In this document: piece by piece, positions 21,943 to 32,000 of the stretch
Numbering within the stretch: position 1 is the first letter of the stretch
How the letters are laid out: the number at the start of each line of letters is the position of its first letter
DNA from: Heliocidaris erythrogramma
Taxonomy: Eukaryota; Echinodermata; Echinoidea; Camarodonta; Echinometridae
Direction: 5' to 3'
Assembly (NCBI GenBank): GCA_025617745.1
Contig: CM046870.1
Location: forward strand, 23,231,501-23,295,500
DNA: 64,000 nucleotides
Made by a program: the position numbers and the translations under genes
Notes under the pieces: generated by a model
Database searches by the model: none
Seen by the model: the letters and a program-made list of their open reading frames with translations, nothing else
What the model was told of the DNA's origin: nothing

Positions 21943-22828
21943 ATCTAGTCCAGGCTAGAGGTCACATGACCTTGTTTTTTTATATATACAATGTTTTTTG
22001 GTGGTTTCTTGTCAATTTGAGGGTGCTGATTCCAAATCTGAATGATGCCACTCGCGTAACCTTGAGCATTTTCCGCAAATTGGCAAAATCCAAGATGGCC
22101 GCCAAAAATGGGAATTTGACCCTGATAATCACAATTACTTGCATTTTATGATGAATTATTATATTTAACTTCATACATTTTTGTTCCTTGAGTTATTTAA
22201 TATGCAAATACAGGTCAATTTTCATTTTTAGTAGATATGTATGGTAATTAGGGCGCAATTTCAATTCAAAATGGCCGCCGTTCATATAATACTGTACAAT
22301 ATGAAAGCAATCAATATGCGTAGAAATATGAAATTATTTTACTGTTTTTCTTACCTCACACCGACACTCTTATCTAGTTTCCCAAGCTGATTACAATTAT
22401 CAAGGCTCCACTTACATAAGGCTGTTCTTTTTATATGCGAAAATCCAAAATGGCCGCCAAAATCATGATTGACACAAAGAACCTCCAAATAGACACATTT
22501 GACCATTTGTTGCATATATGCCCACTGTTTGGAACATCCTAACCTTCATTTGCTTTATAATAAATCTAATTAAAAAAATGTCGTTTGGACTTAAATCAAA
22601 TATACCTCTGATAAGGGCATAAATTGAGCACCTAAGTGGAAACAGTGTAAAATATGTTACACATCACTAACAAATCAAAGTGAAAGGTACGTCTTTCAGT
22701 TATCTTACCAATTCTGTCACTAGAATGAGTTTTATTCAGTCTCGTCTTCAGAGCTTGCACTTTCATCGTCTTCTGAAGGTTTTTTTCATTGGGTTCTGGC
22801 AGCGGACATCAGCCCCACATCGACAGAA

Positions 22829-24508
22829 TTAAGTGCAGGCTAAAGATGATTTGGTACAACCACACAGTGCAGACCTGCAATCTCCCTTGCAACCACACTT
22901 GATGATGTTCAGAACTTCCTCAGGAGCCACTGGATGATCATTTGCCAGGTAGATAGGTTGAAGAGATGATGACTTCATTGACCAACCGTTCTGCCGAGGA
23001 TCCAAAGTTGGAGGTTCAGGCCTACCAGCAGCCATCCACAAGCTGTCTGATAACTGGCGCGCTGACAATGTGGTCGAATTAAAGCAATGGTAGGTGGAAG
23101 GCTGCACAGTTTTGGTGGTAGGTGACGCTTTCCACCAGTCTTCTTGGTGAAAATGTTCTTGCGCATGGTGTCAAGGGAGCCTTGGAAGTCTCCTCCGTAA
23201 AGTGCATACTTCAAGCAAGATTCCACTGCCTCGTCCAGTGCCACTGCTGGATCTCCCAGGAGGAGAGTGTCTGAATATGACTCCAGGGCTTTCAGTGCTG
23301 AAGCCTTTCCCACACTTGAGAAGCACGACACTGTATCACATCCGGTCAGAGCATGCGCGGCAAGAAGATTGGGTATGATTTTCTGATGTTTCTTGATTAT
23401 CTCATTGACGTCGATGACTGTTCGTTTCCGAGAACATGATTCCATCACCACTTTCACTATGCGTTGCAGACCATTCGTGTAGATGGTGTGCCAGGATAAC
23501 AAGCACATCGGTGTCATCACACACAACTTTCACACTTGAGTGCCCATTCTTGGCCTCCTGTATCATGTGGAAAGCCATTAGAACATCAGCTTCTTCATGC
23601 GTCACTGCTTCTGGTAGTACTCCAATGCCAACATCTATTGGATGTGGTTCTGGTCCTGTCACAACTACCTTCTTGCCCTCTGGTATTCTCTGGGTGCACA
23701 ACTGGTCAACGATCAACTTTATAACTTGTTGTTTGTTTGCAGAGATGTTCAGGACGATGTTCTGTTTTGGCAGAGGGGACGTGCTGAAGAGCCTGTAGAC
23801 ACGGGTGAATCCCTTTGCACGTGTTGTCCGACAACATGACTTGATGCTGTTCTCGTAGTATCTGTCAAACACCACATGAAGAACTGATGGACTTTCAGCG
23901 TATTTCATGGTTGTACCTACTGCAGCATCAACAAAGGTGGATACTTTTGCCGGAGAGCAAGGCCATGGAACCGTCCAGAGAAGAGCACAACCATCCAAAA
24001 TTACGAGTTCAGGAACTGGTTCGTAACGTTGGCTACTTTCCAATTTGCTTGTGGAACGTACATCACCATTCTCATCAAATAGAGCGGGTGGGTAGCGGGC
24101 CAATTCATACGAGAACAATGTCTTGGTTGAGATTGCCTCTTTTGATGATGCCAAGATCCCAATTACTCGTGCATAGATCATTTCTTGTGATGCGCCGCCT
24201 CTTTGTGTCAGTGAAGCTTTTGACATCACCTTAACCTTTTTCTTTATGGTTTCGTGAAACCCCTTTGGCCACTTTCTTTCATACTGCACCATCTGATCCG
24301 TTCCGATTCTGATTCCATCATCAGCGTTTACCCCTCTATCGTCAACAGCCTGACCAGTGAAGATGTTGACCAGACCCGAGGATGGGTGTTTCTCGACGTC
24401 CAAGACATCGATGCAAGTTGATAAGGCTTCACGAATCTTCATTCTGTCAAGTGTGTCATATCTTATTCTTGTGAGAAGTAGGGCATCATTCTTTCAACTG
24501 CGTGCCAT
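22829..24508 (-). pseudogene. FEN/XPG-like nuclease with CXC domain, left-arm copy
   Basis: A long ORF (23402-24442) continues in a second frame (22975-23526) and a third (22829-23107). Motifs in order are VILDGCALLW (first acidic site), HVVFDRYYENS, THEEADVLMAF, VVCDDTDVLVIL, and HALTGCDTVSCF with GVGKASALKAL-like residues. The end is a Cys-rich CGCKGDCRSALCGC segment. This order matches the PIN/FEN nuclease fold (DG, VFD, EAEA-like, DxD, helix-turn-helix GxGxxxA) followed by a CRC/tesmin-like CXC motif. The assignment is my inference from motifs. Lesions are a frameshift just after the DDTD region, an in-frame TAA inside the Cys-rich end, a 12-nt deletion relative to the right copy, and loss of the 5' part with an internal deletion at about 24474. 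Confidence 0.7.
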
Positions 24509-24509
24509 T

Positions 24510-26673
24510 TCACTGACATCAACGAATTGACTGATACCATCGTTAGACAAAGCAGGACAACCAGATTGTGGGTCGATTGTCTGGTAAAGCCAACAATCAT
24601 CTGCATGGCTTTTGTTCGAGCTGAGAGGGCAGGTGATTGGTCTCTCCATCTGCAAGCAGTTGAAAGAATGATGCCCTACTTCTTTGCATCAGGACACACA
24701 AATTACGCTCGCTATGGATTGTATTATCTTCGCTCCATGTAGCGTCTTTCCCCGGCAATCTTCAAGCAGTTCATGGATGGAGAACATGTCATGCGCCATC
24801 AGGATGATCTGTGGAATGGTATCTGGTCTGATATGTTCATTGAGACAACATACATGCGACATAGAAAAGAACCTGCCGGTATCATTGGATCGACTTTGAA
24901 TGAGACCACTCTTGCAATCTGGGCTTTGTCTCTGAGTGTGGTCGGACAACTGAAGAATGATCGGGCAGTCATGCAAGAGGGTAAAGAGCAAGAAGTTATG
25001 TCTCACAAAGAAGAGAGTCTCACAAGAATAAGATCTGTTGCACTTGACAGAATGAAGATTCGTGAAGCCTTATCAACTTGCATCGATGTCTTGGACGTCG
25101 AGAAACACCCATCCTCGGGTCTGGTCAACATCTTCACTGGTCAGGCAGTTGACGATACAGAGGTAAACGCTGATGATGGAATCAGAATCGGAACGGATCA
25201 GATGGTGCAGTATGAAAGAAAGTGGCCAAAGGGGTTTCACGAAACCATAAAGAAAAAGGTTAAGGTGATGTCAAAAGCTTCACTGACACAAAGAGGCGGC
25301 GCATCACAAGTTGTGAATACAGAAATGATCTATGCACGAGTAATTGGGATCTTGGCATCATCAAAAGAGGCAATCTCAATCAAGACATTGTTCTGGTATG
25401 AATGGTGGTGTACGTTCCACAAGCAAGTCTGTTCTGAAGGAAAGGATCAAAGTGGAAAGTAATCAACGTAACGAACCAGTTCCTGAACTCGTAATTTTGG
25501 ATGGTTGTGCTCTTCTCTGGACTGTTCCATGGCGTAGCTCTCCGGCAAAAGTATCCACCTTCGTTGATGCTGCAGTAGATACAACCATGAAATACGCTGA
25601 AAGTCCATCAGTTCTTCATGTGGTGTTTGACAGATACTACGAGAACAGCATCAAGACATAGTTATGTTGTCGGACAATACGTGCAAAGGGATTCACCCAT
25701 GTGTACAGGCTCTTCAGCAAGTCCCCTCTGCCAAAACAGAACATCGTCCTGAACATCTCTGCAAACAAACAACAAGTTATAAAGTTGATTGTTGACCAGT
25801 TGTGCACCCAGAGAATACCAGAGGGCAAGAAGGCAGTTGTGACAGGACCAGAACCACATCCAATAGATGTTGGCATTGGAGTACTACCGGAAGCAGTGAC
25901 GCATGAAGAAGCTGATGTTCTAATGGCTTACCACATGATACAGGAGGCCAAGAATGGGCATTCAAGTGTGAAAGTTGTGTGTGATGACACCGATGTGCTT
26001 GTTATCCTGGCACACCATCTACACGAATGGTCTGCCACGCACAGTGAAAGTGGTGATGGAATCATGTTCTCGGAAACGAACAGTCATCGACGTCAATGAG
26101 GTAATCAAGAAACATCAGAAAATCATGCCCAATCTTCTTGCCGCGCATGCTCTGACCGGATGTGATACAGTGTCGTGCTTCTCAGGTGTGGGAAAGGCTT
26201 CAGCACTGAAAGCCCTGGAGTCATATTCGGACACTCTCCTCCTGGGAGATCCAGCAGTGGCACTGGATGAGGCAGTGGAATCTTGCTTGAAGTATGCACT
26301 TTACGGAGGAGATTTCCAAGGCTCCCTTGACATCATGCGCAAGAACATTTTCACCAAGAAGACTGGTGGAAAGCGTCACCTACCACCAAAACTGTGCAGC
26401 CTTCCACCTACCATTGCTTTAATTCGACCACATTGTCAGCGCGCCAGTTATCAGACAGCTTTGTGGATGGCTGCTGGTAAGCCTGAACCTCCAACTTTGG
26501 ATCCTCGGCAGAACGGTTGGTCAATGAAGTCATCATCTCTTCAACCTATTTACCTGGCAAATGATCATCCAGTGGCTCCTGAGGAAGTTCTGAACATCAT
26601 CAAGTGTGGTTGCAAGGGAGATTGCAGGTCTGCACTGTGTGGCTGTACCAAATCATCTTTAGCCTGCACTTAA
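24510..26673 (+). pseudogene. FEN/XPG-like nuclease with CXC domain, right-arm copy
   Basis: This is the mirror copy of the left-arm gene but retains more N-terminal sequence (FVRAERAGDWSLHLQAVERM, then GEHVMRHQDDLWNGIWSDMF). It then follows the same motif order: VILDGCALLW, VVFDRYYENS, HEEADVLMAY, VVCDDTDVLVIL, LTGCDTVSCFSGVGKASALK, and the CGCKGDCRSALCGC end at about 26605-26670. It shares the left copy's frameshift after DDTD and the TAA in the Cys-rich end. Private lesions are a TAG at about 24740, a deletion after KTLFWYE (about 25400), and a stop near 25660. The shared lesions mean both arms descend from one already broken gene. The 5' end is truncated at the palindrome centre. Confidence 0.7.
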
Positions 26674-27586
26674 TTCTGTCGATGTGGGGCTGATGTCCGC
26701 TGCCAAAACCCAATGAAAAAACCTTCGGAAGACAATGAAAGTGCAAGCTCTGAAGACGAGACTGAATAAAACTCATGTTGCCAAAGTGCATCTAGTGACA
26801 GAATTGGTGAGATAACTGAAAGACGTGCCTTTCACTTTGATTTGTTGGTGATGTGTAACATATTTTACACATTGTTTCCACTTAGGTGCTCAATTTATGC
26901 CCTTATCACAGGTATATTTGATTTAAGTCCAAAGGACATTTTATTTGATGAGATTAATTATAAAGCAAATGAAGGTTAGGATGTTCGAAATAATGGGCAT
27001 ATACGCAACAAATGGTCACATGTGTCTATTTGTAGGTTCTTTGTGGCAATCTTAATTTTGGCGGCCATTTTGGATTTTCGCATTTAAAAAGAACAGCCTT
27101 ATGTAAGTGGAGCCTTGATAATTGAAATCAGCTTGGGAAACTTGATAAGAGTGTCGGTGTGAGGTAAGAAAAACAGTAAAATAATTTCATATTTCTACGC
27201 ATATTGATTGCTTTCATATTGTACAGTATTATATGAATGGCGGCCATTTTGAATTGAAATTGCGCCCTAATTACCATACATATCTACTAAAAATGAAAAT
27301 TGACCTGTATTTGCATATTAAATAACCCAAGGAACAAAAATGTATGAAGTTAAATATAATAATTCGTCATAAAATGTAAGTAATTGTGATTATCAGGGTC
27401 GAATTCCCATTTTTGGCGGCCATCTTGGATTTTGCCAATTTGCGGAAAACGCTCAAGGTTACGCGAGTGGCATCATTCAGATTTGGAATCAGCACCCTCG
27501 AATTAGCAAGAAACCATCAAAAAACATTGTATATATCCAAAAACAAGGTTAGGTCCCCTTTCTATGGGGCCTAGCCTGGACTAATC

Positions 27587-27973
27587 GATAACATCCTCCG
27601 ACTCCTTTTCCACGGACATGCTGGGCTTCGGCGTTACCGCCTTTGATTCCACAGCTAAGGTGTGATGCCTCGTCGGATCCCGGGAAACATCCCTCTGTCT
27701 TTTTAGGTTCCTGTCTGTCGACCGATCTCTTGCTTCTGCGCTATGACGCTCTCTTTGATGAGCCCTCAGGTTGTCTCTCCGACTATACACCTTGTCACAT
27801 CTGTCACACTCATATGACCGGCGTTTTCGATGCATCTCGTCAATGTGTCTGTGCAGGCTTCTTCTGTGCGAGAAATACCTTCCGCAGCTGCAGCATTTTA
27901 AGCTCTCGTCTCCAAACATCCGATGCCTCATCTTGACGTCCATTTCTCTTCTCTTGTATTCTACAAGTGACAT
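27587..27973 (-). pseudogene. Two C2H2 zinc fingers at the end of Gypsy pol
   Basis: Minus-strand ORF with two consecutive classical fingers: CCSCGRYFSHRRSLHRHIDE followed by MH (C-x2-C-x12-H-x4-H), and CDRCDKVYSRRDNLRAHQRE followed by RH. It overlaps the end of the integrase ORF in another frame, and its start (EYKRREMDVKMRHRMF) reads as the natural continuation of the integrase tail. A frameshift near 27950 therefore probably separates what was one polyprotein. The fingers would bind nucleic acid and might target integration. The ORF is cut at its far end by the palindromic element. Confidence 0.7.
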
Positions 27974-28644
27974 CTGACAATTGTTGGATGATCAGGTAAG
28001 GGCCTTCCCACTTTCTCTGGAGTTTTGGAGATAAGCCTTTAGTCTTGGCCTGGTTGTGAAGCCAAACAAACTTCCCCACTACCAAAGGACTTCCCTCTGC
28101 CTTCGCATCATAGGTCCTTTTTTGTCGTCGGGCACTCTCTGCGAAGTTGTCCCGGGCTCTTTGGTGTGCTGCCCGAATTCGCTGCCTCAGGGTTAATGCA
28201 TAATCTGTCTCCACATCATGCTCCTTACCCTCTTCATCCCTTAAGGCCTCTGTCGTCAAATCAATTGGCACATGCAGTTCTCGCCCTAACATGAGCATGT
28301 TAGGTGTCTCTCTTGTGGAATCTTGGGGGGCACTGCGGTAGGCAAACAATGCAATCGCCAACTTCTCATCCCAGTCCCGTTGTCGTTTATGTGGTTCAAT
28401 CATCATTGAGATCATGTTAAGCAGGGTGCCATTAAATTTCTCAATGAGTCCGTCGGACTTGGGGTTGTATGGGGTGGTACGTGTCTTGTGAATGCTGAGG
28501 ATGCGGCACATTTCTTGAAAAACGCACGACTCAAAATTTCGGCCCTGATCCCAATGCAGTACTGTAGGCACACCGAAACTGCAGACAAACTCGTTAACAA
28601 CCGTTTCCGCTGTTTGATCTGGTATCCGGTAGGCTTCCATCCTC
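27840..28644 (-). pseudogene. Gypsy integrase, core to C-terminus, fused to the 5' LTR
   Basis: A continuous minus-strand frame encodes most of a Gypsy-type integrase. It contains IPDQTAETVVNEFVC, GVPTVLHWDQGRNFESCVFQ (second catalytic Asp), TRTTPYNPKSDGLIEKFN (catalytic Glu), and an AAHQRARDNFAESARRQKRT tail helix. KFVWLHNQAKTKGLSPKLQR with KWEGPYLI forms the GPY/F module. The HHCC zinc-binding N-terminus and first catalytic Asp are absent because the frame begins, at MEAYRIPDQ, exactly where the 5' LTR ends. No primer-binding site or gag is left between them. The ORF itself is otherwise undamaged to 27840. Confidence 0.85.
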
Positions 28645-28994
28645 TGCCGGGTAGCGTTCTGCCTTGCAGTCAAATCTCTTGAACCCGGTCCACGTTCTCA
28701 ACAATCTATCAGCAACAGTCTTGTGGATTCTTATGAAAATATATCGTACACATGGATTCTCTAATTTCATTCACTCCCGCAACCACTTAATGTAAGATTA
28801 ACCAAATAAACAACACTTACACAATATCTGCAGCTCAGGAAAGTTTATGTACACACTGCGCCTGGGAAAACCTGTCACCAAGACAGCTCGACATCGACTG
28901 CGCTTACAAGTTTTGTCTGATACACATATATAGTTCAACATAAACTACTGCGACCTCTATCGGTCTCCTATAATACTGGGCTAATTACGCTACA
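28645..28994 (-). repeat. 5' LTR of the Gypsy-type element
   Basis: A 350-bp direct copy of 20166-20522, ending on the + strand in GCTACA. It lies 42 bp from the stop codon of the neighbouring transposase-like gene, so the retroelement landed in that gene's 3' untranslated or flanking region. Confidence 0.85.
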
Positions 28995-29036: not shown

Positions 29037-32000
29037 TTAGTGTACTTTTCGGCGATGGTCATCGATATCCTTATTACTATTAAATACATACTTGCAGTCG
29101 GCTTTCTGACAGCGCCCAAAATTTTTCTCCTGGAACTTGGGCAGATGGTCACATGGGAGGGACGGTGAAGACAGGGCTTCAAGGAAGGTTTTGAAGTGCC
29201 AAGGGTGGGACAGGCTTGGCGTTGGTGATGGGAAGTGGCGGAGACATTGGAGAAGTTCCTGTGGGGCAGTAGGTGGATGACTAGTACAGTGGGTGCAAGT
29301 TGGATTGACATATTTGGAGAAAATGATTGTCCCGATCCTCCTGTCCATGTGCGCCATTACAAACCTGTACTCCGAGTACACCTCAGGACACTGTTTCAGC
29401 CGTTTAGCTGAACCAAAGATAGCTGATTTGATGGTCTCGTAGTCCTCCCCATAAGGAATGGGTAGTGCACCACTGTGCTCACATGTTGCTTGAATTTCAT
29501 GACCAGCAAATTTGATGTCACGCCAGTACCTATCACAGATAAGGGACATAGCATTGTCAAACACTGCATGCTCCTTCTCGAGCCGCTGCTCAGTGGTAAG
29601 GTTAGTCTGGTAATGTGGAGGTTTATCTTCTCCCTCAAGTGTGGATGGGAGGTACACTCCCACCAATGCCTTGGTGCAAGGGCCCCACAAATGCTCGACA
29701 GGGTTGAAAGCCGAATCGCCCGGACAATAGGATGTAACGAGCAAGCCATCAAGGTTCATGTCCCTGAACAGCCTGCCGTAGAAGAACTCATTAACATGAT
29801 GATTAACATTGAAATCTGGGCCTCCATCGACAATCAAGGTGAGAACTGACTTCCCTGCTTGATGCTGCAGAATCTTCGAAATGTCGTTCATATGACTTGC
29901 GATGTTATTAATTGAATGGGGGCTTCGGAGAATGATGAACGACCTTGAATTCCGAGGAAGCCTGCAGTAATAAGTGAAAATCGATGTATGAAATGGCAAT
30001 CAGTATTAAGTAAACATGAAACTGTATTGTGACAATTTTGTTCGTTTTTATTTATTATTATACAAATATGTAAGCATACATAAGTACAGTGAATAGGCCA
30101 TTATTGGGGAGATGAGACTGATAATTGGGACTGGGACTGATGGTACATCCATGGTATTGAAAACGAGTATGTTTTGTTTTGTACTGTAATATATTTTCCT
30201 GAATTTTTTTTTTAAATTTTACATACCGTAATTGAAAGTAGGTGAAGTTTACCTCAAGTTCAAAGGCCAATGGCAGTAGTTAATGACTGAAGACCAATGA
30301 TAATCTTTGAAAGCAAAATTTTATTATGGAACATATTAATTGTAAAAATTAACAAAGATAAAAATGATGATGATGATCAGGGGAAAAAATAATTTCATTT
30401 TCGGGGGCTACTTTTCCTGTTTCAGTGCTTGCCGGATACTTTTTTGTATTGACCTTAAATGGGTCAACAGTCTTTCAGAGCCTCCAAATTTAGCATGTTC
30501 TAGTAAAAATCGCACATGTATCCACTACAGATAAACATAGAACACATTTACTTACATGTGATGTTGTCTTCCCAGGAGATCTGTGGTACAGCCTGGGACA
30601 GGGTCCACTTCCAGGCACCCAGATGGCGTCAGAAGATAATGGGGTGTGGGGAAGTCATGGTCATAGTAATTGGGAGCATCATCGACTGGGAAATACCTAG
30701 AGTCGGAGGAAGGATAGAAAATTGCTAAGTACAATGAAGATAAAATTAGAAGTATTCTCTCTATCTTGGAAAAGGTGACGGAAATAACATTAAAGTTTAT
30801 TTTAATTGGGATTTGGGAAAATTAAAAATTAAGAATCAAACATTCTTTAACGGGGTAAATAATGGTATTTCTATAAGGATAGTCAGGCAAACATCCCATG
30901 GGCCCACCTTATTTGGGGGGAGTGGGGTTTCCGGTCATAATTTCAGGCAGCGACTAGGACCGTTCTCATAATTTTTCCAAGGGGTGGAGGGAGATGTCAT
31001 ATTTTTCGAAGAGACTAGAAAGCGAGGGAGCAAAGCCACCAAGCTTATATTAAATAGTGAAATTGACAGATTATGTGAACAATATCAGAAAAATAGTATA
31101 AGCTTCCATTTTTTTTGGGGGGACAACAGCCCCCTTCCCCTGCCAACACTACGTACATGTACGGCCATGGTGGTCACCCCACAATTGCAATAATTAATGT
31201 CTGATCACTCATGCATACCAACAGTATTGTACAATGATCCAGCTGCCCCCCCCCCCTCCCCCGCCACACACACACACCCACAAGTTAACGAATCAATAAC
31301 TTTGGGAGGGGGAGCAAAATCCAACCCCCCCCCCCCCACCCCCCTTTTCTTTCCACTTTCCACTTTTACCAACTCCTGAAAACTGGTAAATTTCTTTCCG
31401 CTTTGACCACAGCCTGAAAACCGGTAAATTTCTTTCCGCTTTGACCAGAGCCTAAAAACCGGTAAATTTCTTTCCGCTTTGACCAAAGCCTGTGAACTGG
31501 TAAATTTCAGGCTGTGGTCAAAGCGGAAAGAAATTTACTGGTTTTCAGGCTTTGGTAAAAGCGGAAAGAAAGTAATCGGTTTTTAGGCTGTGGTCAAAGC
31601 AAAAAAATCAACGGTTTTCAGGAGTTGGAAAATAGTTTTTTGCAGCCATTATGTAAACTTCAAAATGGAGGACTAATAGGTGCCTGTACAAAGAGACACA
31701 TTGTTTATCTGATTACATATTCAATAACCTGCCTTAGCAACCTAATTAACGATAATGAGTTGATTTTCGGCAAAAAATATTGTCCAAAATCAGATTAGCA
31801 GCCATTTTGTAAATTCTACATTGCCGCCTCAGAGGTGTCTGTACAAACAGAAACGGGGATAACCGGATTCTCGATCAGCTATCTAAATCATGACCATGTG
31901 TTGGCTTGAAGCTGAAATATTGTGAAAAAGAAATGTTTTATCAGCAATTTTGTAAAATCGAAGATGGCGACCCTATAGGCGTCTGGACAAATGGAAACAT

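Follow-up and report, generated by a model that had tools for sequence, protein, structure and literature searches.

Within the genome of Heliocidaris erythrogramma, we analysed a 64,000-nt stretch of DNA (C18:23231501-23295500, hereafter the window), which contains a 5,638-bp palindromic mobile element at positions 21946-27583. The element carries two head-to-head copies of one gene, whose product has motifs resembling those of FEN/XPG nucleases. It very probably derives from an AcademX-type DNA transposon, as a palindromic (fold-back) and non-autonomous form. An initial annotation had read the FEN-like protein as the sole gene of the element and had held that known DNA transposons use no such enzyme. 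The latter claim overlooks the Academ superfamily, as described in excerpts of PMC10045372 and PMC9587614. As to the former, the protein corresponds to the 3′ part of a DDE-plus-FEN gene, intact copies of which occur elsewhere in the genome (1.06 Gb in 26 contigs searched). Judged by its sequence, the FEN-like protein is the C-terminal part of a predicted protein of about 1,500 residues and no independent or sole gene. What appeared to be a nuclease-only transposon can be understood as derived from a superfamily that has received little study.

A family of palindromic copies

The element is bounded by perfect 13-bp terminal inverted repeats (TIRs; TAGTCCAGGCTAG) that are 100% complementary to each other. 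Its arms are inverted repeats (element positions 24-2531 against 5604-3073) with an overall identity of 94.3%, and ungapped arm blocks of at least 61 nt are 92-98% identical. These very long inverted repeats fill nearly the whole element, the hallmark by which we class it as fold-back. The palindromic layout had been recognized in the initial annotation, together with the perfect ends, the ATC target-site duplication and the head-to-head gene copies, and stands as described. Both gene copies are broken, with the coding of each arm spread over several frames.

Interruption of a host retroelement open reading frame (ORF), also proposed there, is borne out by two empty sites (C12:48038404-48038583 and C7:9095136-9095315) that carry the retroelement flanks uninterrupted. 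When the flanks of the element are joined (90 + 90 bp, with one ATC), 180 of 180 positions align to both empty sites at 98% identity and with unchanged length. The interrupted ORF (27581-27991, minus strand) now ends at a TAG supplied by the TIR, and with the flanks rejoined it regains seven further codons followed by its own stop.

The first 455 bp of the element gave 40 scored matches in the genome (94 candidates), 96-100% identical and with the window's own counted. Among these are four pairs of matches that lie 4-6 kb apart in opposite orientation, probably representing the two ends of one element each. With each pair taken as a single element, the family is estimated at about 36 elements or more. 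We fetched 20 copy regions, resulting in 21 elements when the window is included. Of the 20 fetched copies, 18 have both ends, each with no more than one mismatch; L024 has an altered left end, and no right end was found within 10 kb in L027. The expectation that other copies would share the ends and the 3-bp duplications holds for most of them. Among the 20 elements with both ends (19 copies and the window), 16 are flanked by 3-bp duplications. Of the other four, L013 has a duplication of 4 bp and L011 one of just 2 bp, and L024 and L026 lack one. As a control, flanks paired at random agree over 3 bp in 9% of cases.

The palindromic structure is itself a property of the family. Inverted outer arms match in 19 of the 21 elements, and gene parts of at least 50 residues are found on both strands in 18. 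The remaining three are L012, with a right arm cut to 77 bp, L027, for which the right end is missing as noted above, and L028. L016 and L018, both 5,147 bp long, occupy different sites with different duplications (AAC versus ATA). Copies of the same structure at different sites with different duplications indicate that the palindromic form itself was copied. A one-off inverted duplication was considered and rejected, as the palindromic gene arrangement is common to 18 of the 21 elements. As a separate observation, L028 contains an inserted reverse-transcriptase-like ORF that appears LINE-like by eye.

The arms enclose a short loop whose orientation relative to the outer ends varies. It is oriented as in the window in five of the 21 elements (the window, L012, L016, L018 and L022) and oppositely in ten, with a mixed arrangement in L025 and L026; in the comparison of all 21, no loop was found in L017, L021, L027 and L028. 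L019 (5,130 bp) and L022 (5,138 bp) resemble flip isomers. This variation may reflect inversion between the arms or exchange of ends. Over the first 35 bp inside the TIRs of 20 elements, the majority blocks differ between left (AGGTCACATGACCTTG) and right (GCCCCATAGAAAGGGGACC), and outside these end blocks the left and right arms are near-identical. Mean arm identities, which include the truncated right arm of L012 and the interrupted right arm of L028, are 0.963 for left-left, 0.894 for right-right, 0.927 for left-right within copies and 0.921 for left-right between copies. The last two values show no clear excess within copies, and homogenization of the arms within copies was rejected on this basis.

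A predicted DDE-plus-nuclease gene in long relatives

A fragment from the N-terminal border of the window's right gene copy is 46% identical over 99 residues to a 1,255-residue frame of L029, one of several long relatives in the same genome. Others contain one open frame each, of 1,578 (L030), 1,567 (L031 and L032), 1,484 (L033) and 1,521 residues (L037), and L029 has a further 259 residues in another frame. When aligned, the long relatives share one layout: a Cys-containing region at the N-terminus is followed by a D...D...E set and then by the FEN-type motifs, and a Cys cluster stands at the C-terminus. At the motif level, DDE and nuclease parts are combined in one gene in L030, L031, L032, L033 and L037, and over two frames in L029.

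Across five distinct long relatives, with L029 represented by its 1,255-residue frame only, 75 alignment columns are invariant. In L033 numbering, the invariant acidic residues are, in order, D207; D468, D471, D649, D849 and E853; and D1081, D1121, E1194, E1195, D1197 and D1221. By their pattern, D468/D471, D649 and E853 would form the DDE core, i.e. the catalytic triad. Weak matches to DUF6589 overlap the D...D...E region in L037 (8.5e-6), L033 (5.3e-5) and L030 (0.0034), all below the curated cut-off; the profile search gave no DUF6589 match for L031, and a literature search for DUF6589 returned no paper. The Cys cluster weakly matches the TCR/CXC model, at best 0.0011 (L037), likewise below cut-off.

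The initial annotation had proposed a search for single-gene, full-length copies with the same ends and 3-bp duplications. A related one exists: L029 and its upstream neighbour L036 together make up a single-gene element of 8.8 kb, whose inverted repeats are about 0.76 kb long and 97% identical. Its ends, TAGTCCGGCAGCC and GGCTACCGGACTA, start with TAGTCCGG, and TTA flanks the element on both sides. L034, of the L029 family, has ends of the same kind, also starting with TAGTCCGG, and a TAT duplication. Like those of the window element, these ends begin with TAGTCC (six bases in common) and are flanked by a 3-bp duplication; L034 and the window also share a 27-bp subterminal stretch, and a motif resembling the subterminal repeat AATCCAAAATGGCCGCC of the window element is present in both L029 and L034. 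Among the matches listed, no DDE-complete element bore the exact TAGTCCAGGCTAG ends.

How much of the gene the palindromic family has retained can be read from a search with the DDE region of L029, for which 99 of 304 candidates were scored. Among the matches listed, those of the window family begin at residue 217 or later, and the first two aspartates of the set lie at residues 37 (D1) and 206 (D2), such that neither is represented. In the right copy of the window, the final residue of the set is still present (E, 24842-24844), with D1 and D2 gone. From the same query, 18 of 114 listed matches fall in a 1,567-residue frame, 17 of them without a stop in the match. L031 (C2:13194500-13203500) and L032 (C10:32771200-32780200), which carry this DDE-plus-FEN-type frame intact, are 99.8% identical over 8.9 kb and probably represent a young Academ-like family with ends beyond the regions read. 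Such intact copies offer material on why Academ-like transposases carry a FEN-like part. Tandem repeats were seen downstream of the frame in both.

The FEN/XPG-like motif order and the CXC-like end described in the initial annotation are upheld by intact homologues, in which the acidic residues of FEN type are preserved. The series D, D, E, E/D, D, D, D is present together with a GCD...G.GK segment, apart from single exceptions: in DTD, L028 has N and L029 has I in place of the second D, and L033 has GSD instead of GCD. The GCD segment of L029 lies beyond the end of its first frame and was located in the second. In the same way as FEN1, EXO1, XPG and the polymerase I 5′-nucleases, the part has this acidic motif order, and two stretches align to Exonuclease 1 chains. 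A profile of six FEN-region sequences gave five matches in the PDB up to E = 10, four of them to Exonuclease 1 (E 0.076-0.12), with VFD..S.K..R..R followed by TGCD..S..G.G in the same order, the first stretch scoring below zero. Among NCBIfam profiles, the protein of L009, one of the palindromic copies, is best matched by DNA polymerase I (E 0.017) at profile positions 109-207, which we take to be the 5′-nuclease part. Unlike members of these families, the part reaches only the E values given, and a Pfam search returned no XPG match; searches of Pfam, NCBIfam and PHROGs profiles returned no significant FEN family.

Other comparisons gave little. An alignment of the FEN region (A4) was compared by hhalign with 50 single bacterial and phage sequences (E. 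coli K-12, T7 and T4). The PolA 5′-nuclease part came fifth, at 0.8% probability and not above decoys, and aligned outside the expected region. Against the PDB by sequence, the first-arm protein of the window had no match, and the L009 protein had 17 up to E = 10. The best of these, to TAL effector repeats (0.0012), consisted of many low-scoring pieces and was taken as chance. Viral contigs yielded one pattern match and no relative, and phage records no match. Motifs and weak profile matches, on which the fold assignment rests, make FEN-like homology of the nuclease part likely rather than proven.

Origin, movement and alternative readings

As far as could be tested against published descriptions, the elements probably belong to Academ by architecture, duplication length and TIRs. 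The nuclease of AcademX is of the XPG type. According to excerpts of the literature, AcademH and AcademX encode helicase and nuclease, AcademX makes 3-4-bp duplications, and the duplication lengths of the two were suggested to relate to the encoded helicase or nuclease (PMC10045372). Academ is further listed, in a partial text, among the superfamilies with a DDD/E transposase (PMC9587614), and Academ elements are described in another as amplified in bivalves (PMC10294476), in keeping with an animal host. The relatives in this genome are similar in that D...D...E and FEN-type motifs occur in one protein, and duplications of 3-4 bp were found in 17 of the 20 both-ended elements, in addition to the empty sites. 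Unlike AcademX, the window element has its gene reduced to the 3′ part, with one copy in each of the inverted arms. Titles and abstract openings searched in the open literature named no palindromic Academ element.

We envisage an ancestor with one gene, whose product began with a Cys-containing part, continued with a DDE transposase core and a FEN/XPG-like nuclease region, and ended in a CXC-like C-terminus. Inverted duplication of the 3′ end of such an Academ element, probably by template switching in repair after excision, would have extended the TIRs inward, leaving the 3′ part of the gene in each arm and removing the 5′ part, and with it D1 and D2. Founders with good ends and without a working transposase of their own would then have been copied as palindromes. 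As no listed match of the window family has the first two aspartates, these elements are most likely non-autonomous and depend for their movement on an Academ DDE transposase acting in trans, which would read their ends. The FEN copies would mostly be decaying passengers, and the nuclease part may normally assist the transposase.

A parallel is offered by Galileo, for which we know of no nuclease part. In the excerpt of PMC4168063, Galileo took the last piece of the transposase ORF into its TIRs, resembling the extended TIRs seen here. Unlike the Academ-like elements, it belongs to the P superfamily and makes 7-bp duplications (same excerpt). The palindromic family illustrates how TIRs can absorb half a gene and spread in that form.

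Several findings weigh against this derivation. No DDE-complete element with exact TAGTCCAGGCTAG ends was found among the 99 of 304 candidates scored, from which a sister may be missing, and the FEN assignment stays below significance by sequence. In addition, one frame of at least 459 residues is kept in nine of the 21 elements (L009, L010, L011, L013-L016, L018 and L028), among them stop-free frames of 579 residues in L009 and L011 and a frame of 564 residues in L028. When aligned to the L009 frame, the 21 elements provide 17,795 codons with 53 stops and a pooled ratio of nonsynonymous to synonymous differences (pN/pS) of 0.62 (pN 0.043, pS 0.069), a simple count that takes in both arms and frame-broken stretches. 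These data show no strong constraint on the FEN part and leave room for a weak one, past or present.

The long frames and the ratio would suit palindromic copies that still make a truncated FEN and CXC protein, which in trans might, for instance, repress or assist the full transposase or act on hairpin intermediates. We consider this unlikely: 12 of the 21 elements are without any frame of at least 459 residues, single motif acids are changed in L016 and L028 (DTN for DTD), and simple counts without transition/transversion correction give pN/pS below 1 even under neutrality. There is, in our estimate, only a slight chance that the palindromes move because they are driven or licensed to do so by the retained Academ nuclease part, working on arm hairpins or together with a foreign transposase. 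If so, the family would be the nuclease-only partner of a two-protein transposition system, moving palindromes that cells normally destroy.

Marginally more doubtful still is a reading raised in the initial annotation, that the FEN-like nuclease itself catalyses the movement of a new class of TIR transposon; the DDE-bearing relatives would then be later fusions. Retention of the FEN part by the palindromic family would fit such a role, as would the 579-residue frames, the pN/pS value and the spread of the family without a DDE-complete member among the matches listed. Against it stand the D...D...E set, found in the same frame in all five distinct long relatives aligned, the 53 stops and the 12 elements without a long frame. 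An assembly artefact, in which one element was mirrored by a hairpin or chimeric read, has next to no probability and was rejected: palindromes are known from amplified or long-read data, but here several per cent of sites differ between the arms, the left and right ends each have a block of their own, other loci show the same structure with separate duplications, and empty sites exist for the window insertion. Derivation from an AcademX-type transposon remains our preferred reading.

Features of the element and its surroundings

The coordinates of the element, its gene copies and the interrupted ORF are collected in the table.

Table. Annotated features in and next to the palindromic element (window positions)
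Feature	Position	Strand	Basis
Target-site duplication ATC, left	21943..21945	.	sequence and empty sites
13-bp TIR TAGTCCAGGCTAG, left end; followed by left-specific block AGGTCACATGACCTTG	21946..21958	+	sequence and other copies
Left arm of palindrome	21946..24505	+	inverted-repeat analysis
Three left-arm subterminal repeats like AATCCAAAATGGCCGCC, spacing 176 and 179 bp	22087..22458	+	repeat analysis
Left gene copy: FEN-like region and Cys cluster; frames 23402-24493, 22975-23529, 22829-23170; stop 22732-22734	22732..24493	-	
Loop, 146 bp, enclosed by innermost inverted repeats; orientation to outer ends varies among copies	24506..24651	.	inverted-repeat analysis
Right gene copy: end of DDE region (conserved E 24842-24844), FEN-like region, Cys cluster; several frames; stop 26767-26769	24590..26769	+	
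Right arm of palindrome; contains 24684-25017, absent from left arm	24652..27583	-	inverted-repeat analysis
Right-arm counterparts of the three AATCCAAAATGGCCGCC-like subterminal repeats	27059..27431	-	repeat analysis
13-bp TIR, right end; inward, right-specific block with CCCC and GGGG runs	27571..27583	-	sequence and other copies
Target-site duplication ATC, right	27584..27586	.	sequence and empty sites
ORF of the host retroelement, containing two C2H2 zinc fingers; interrupted 7 codons before its own stop	27581..27991	-	sequence and Pfam

In the retroelement that hosts the insertion, an integrase-like ORF adjoins the C2H2-finger ORF in another frame (together 27581-28697, minus strand). It matches the Pfam family Integrase_p58_C above cut-off and rve below cut-off, and the host retroelement is presumably Gypsy-like.

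Two further observations were made in the window. An ORF of 320 residues (29037-29999, minus strand) with DGGPDFN...SAFNPVEHLWGP has only weak OrsD and zinc-finger matches in Pfam, and we take it to resemble the end of a DDE transposase. At 31356-31622, two 38-bp tandem arrays lie next to each other, with units that appear to be inverted copies of one another.

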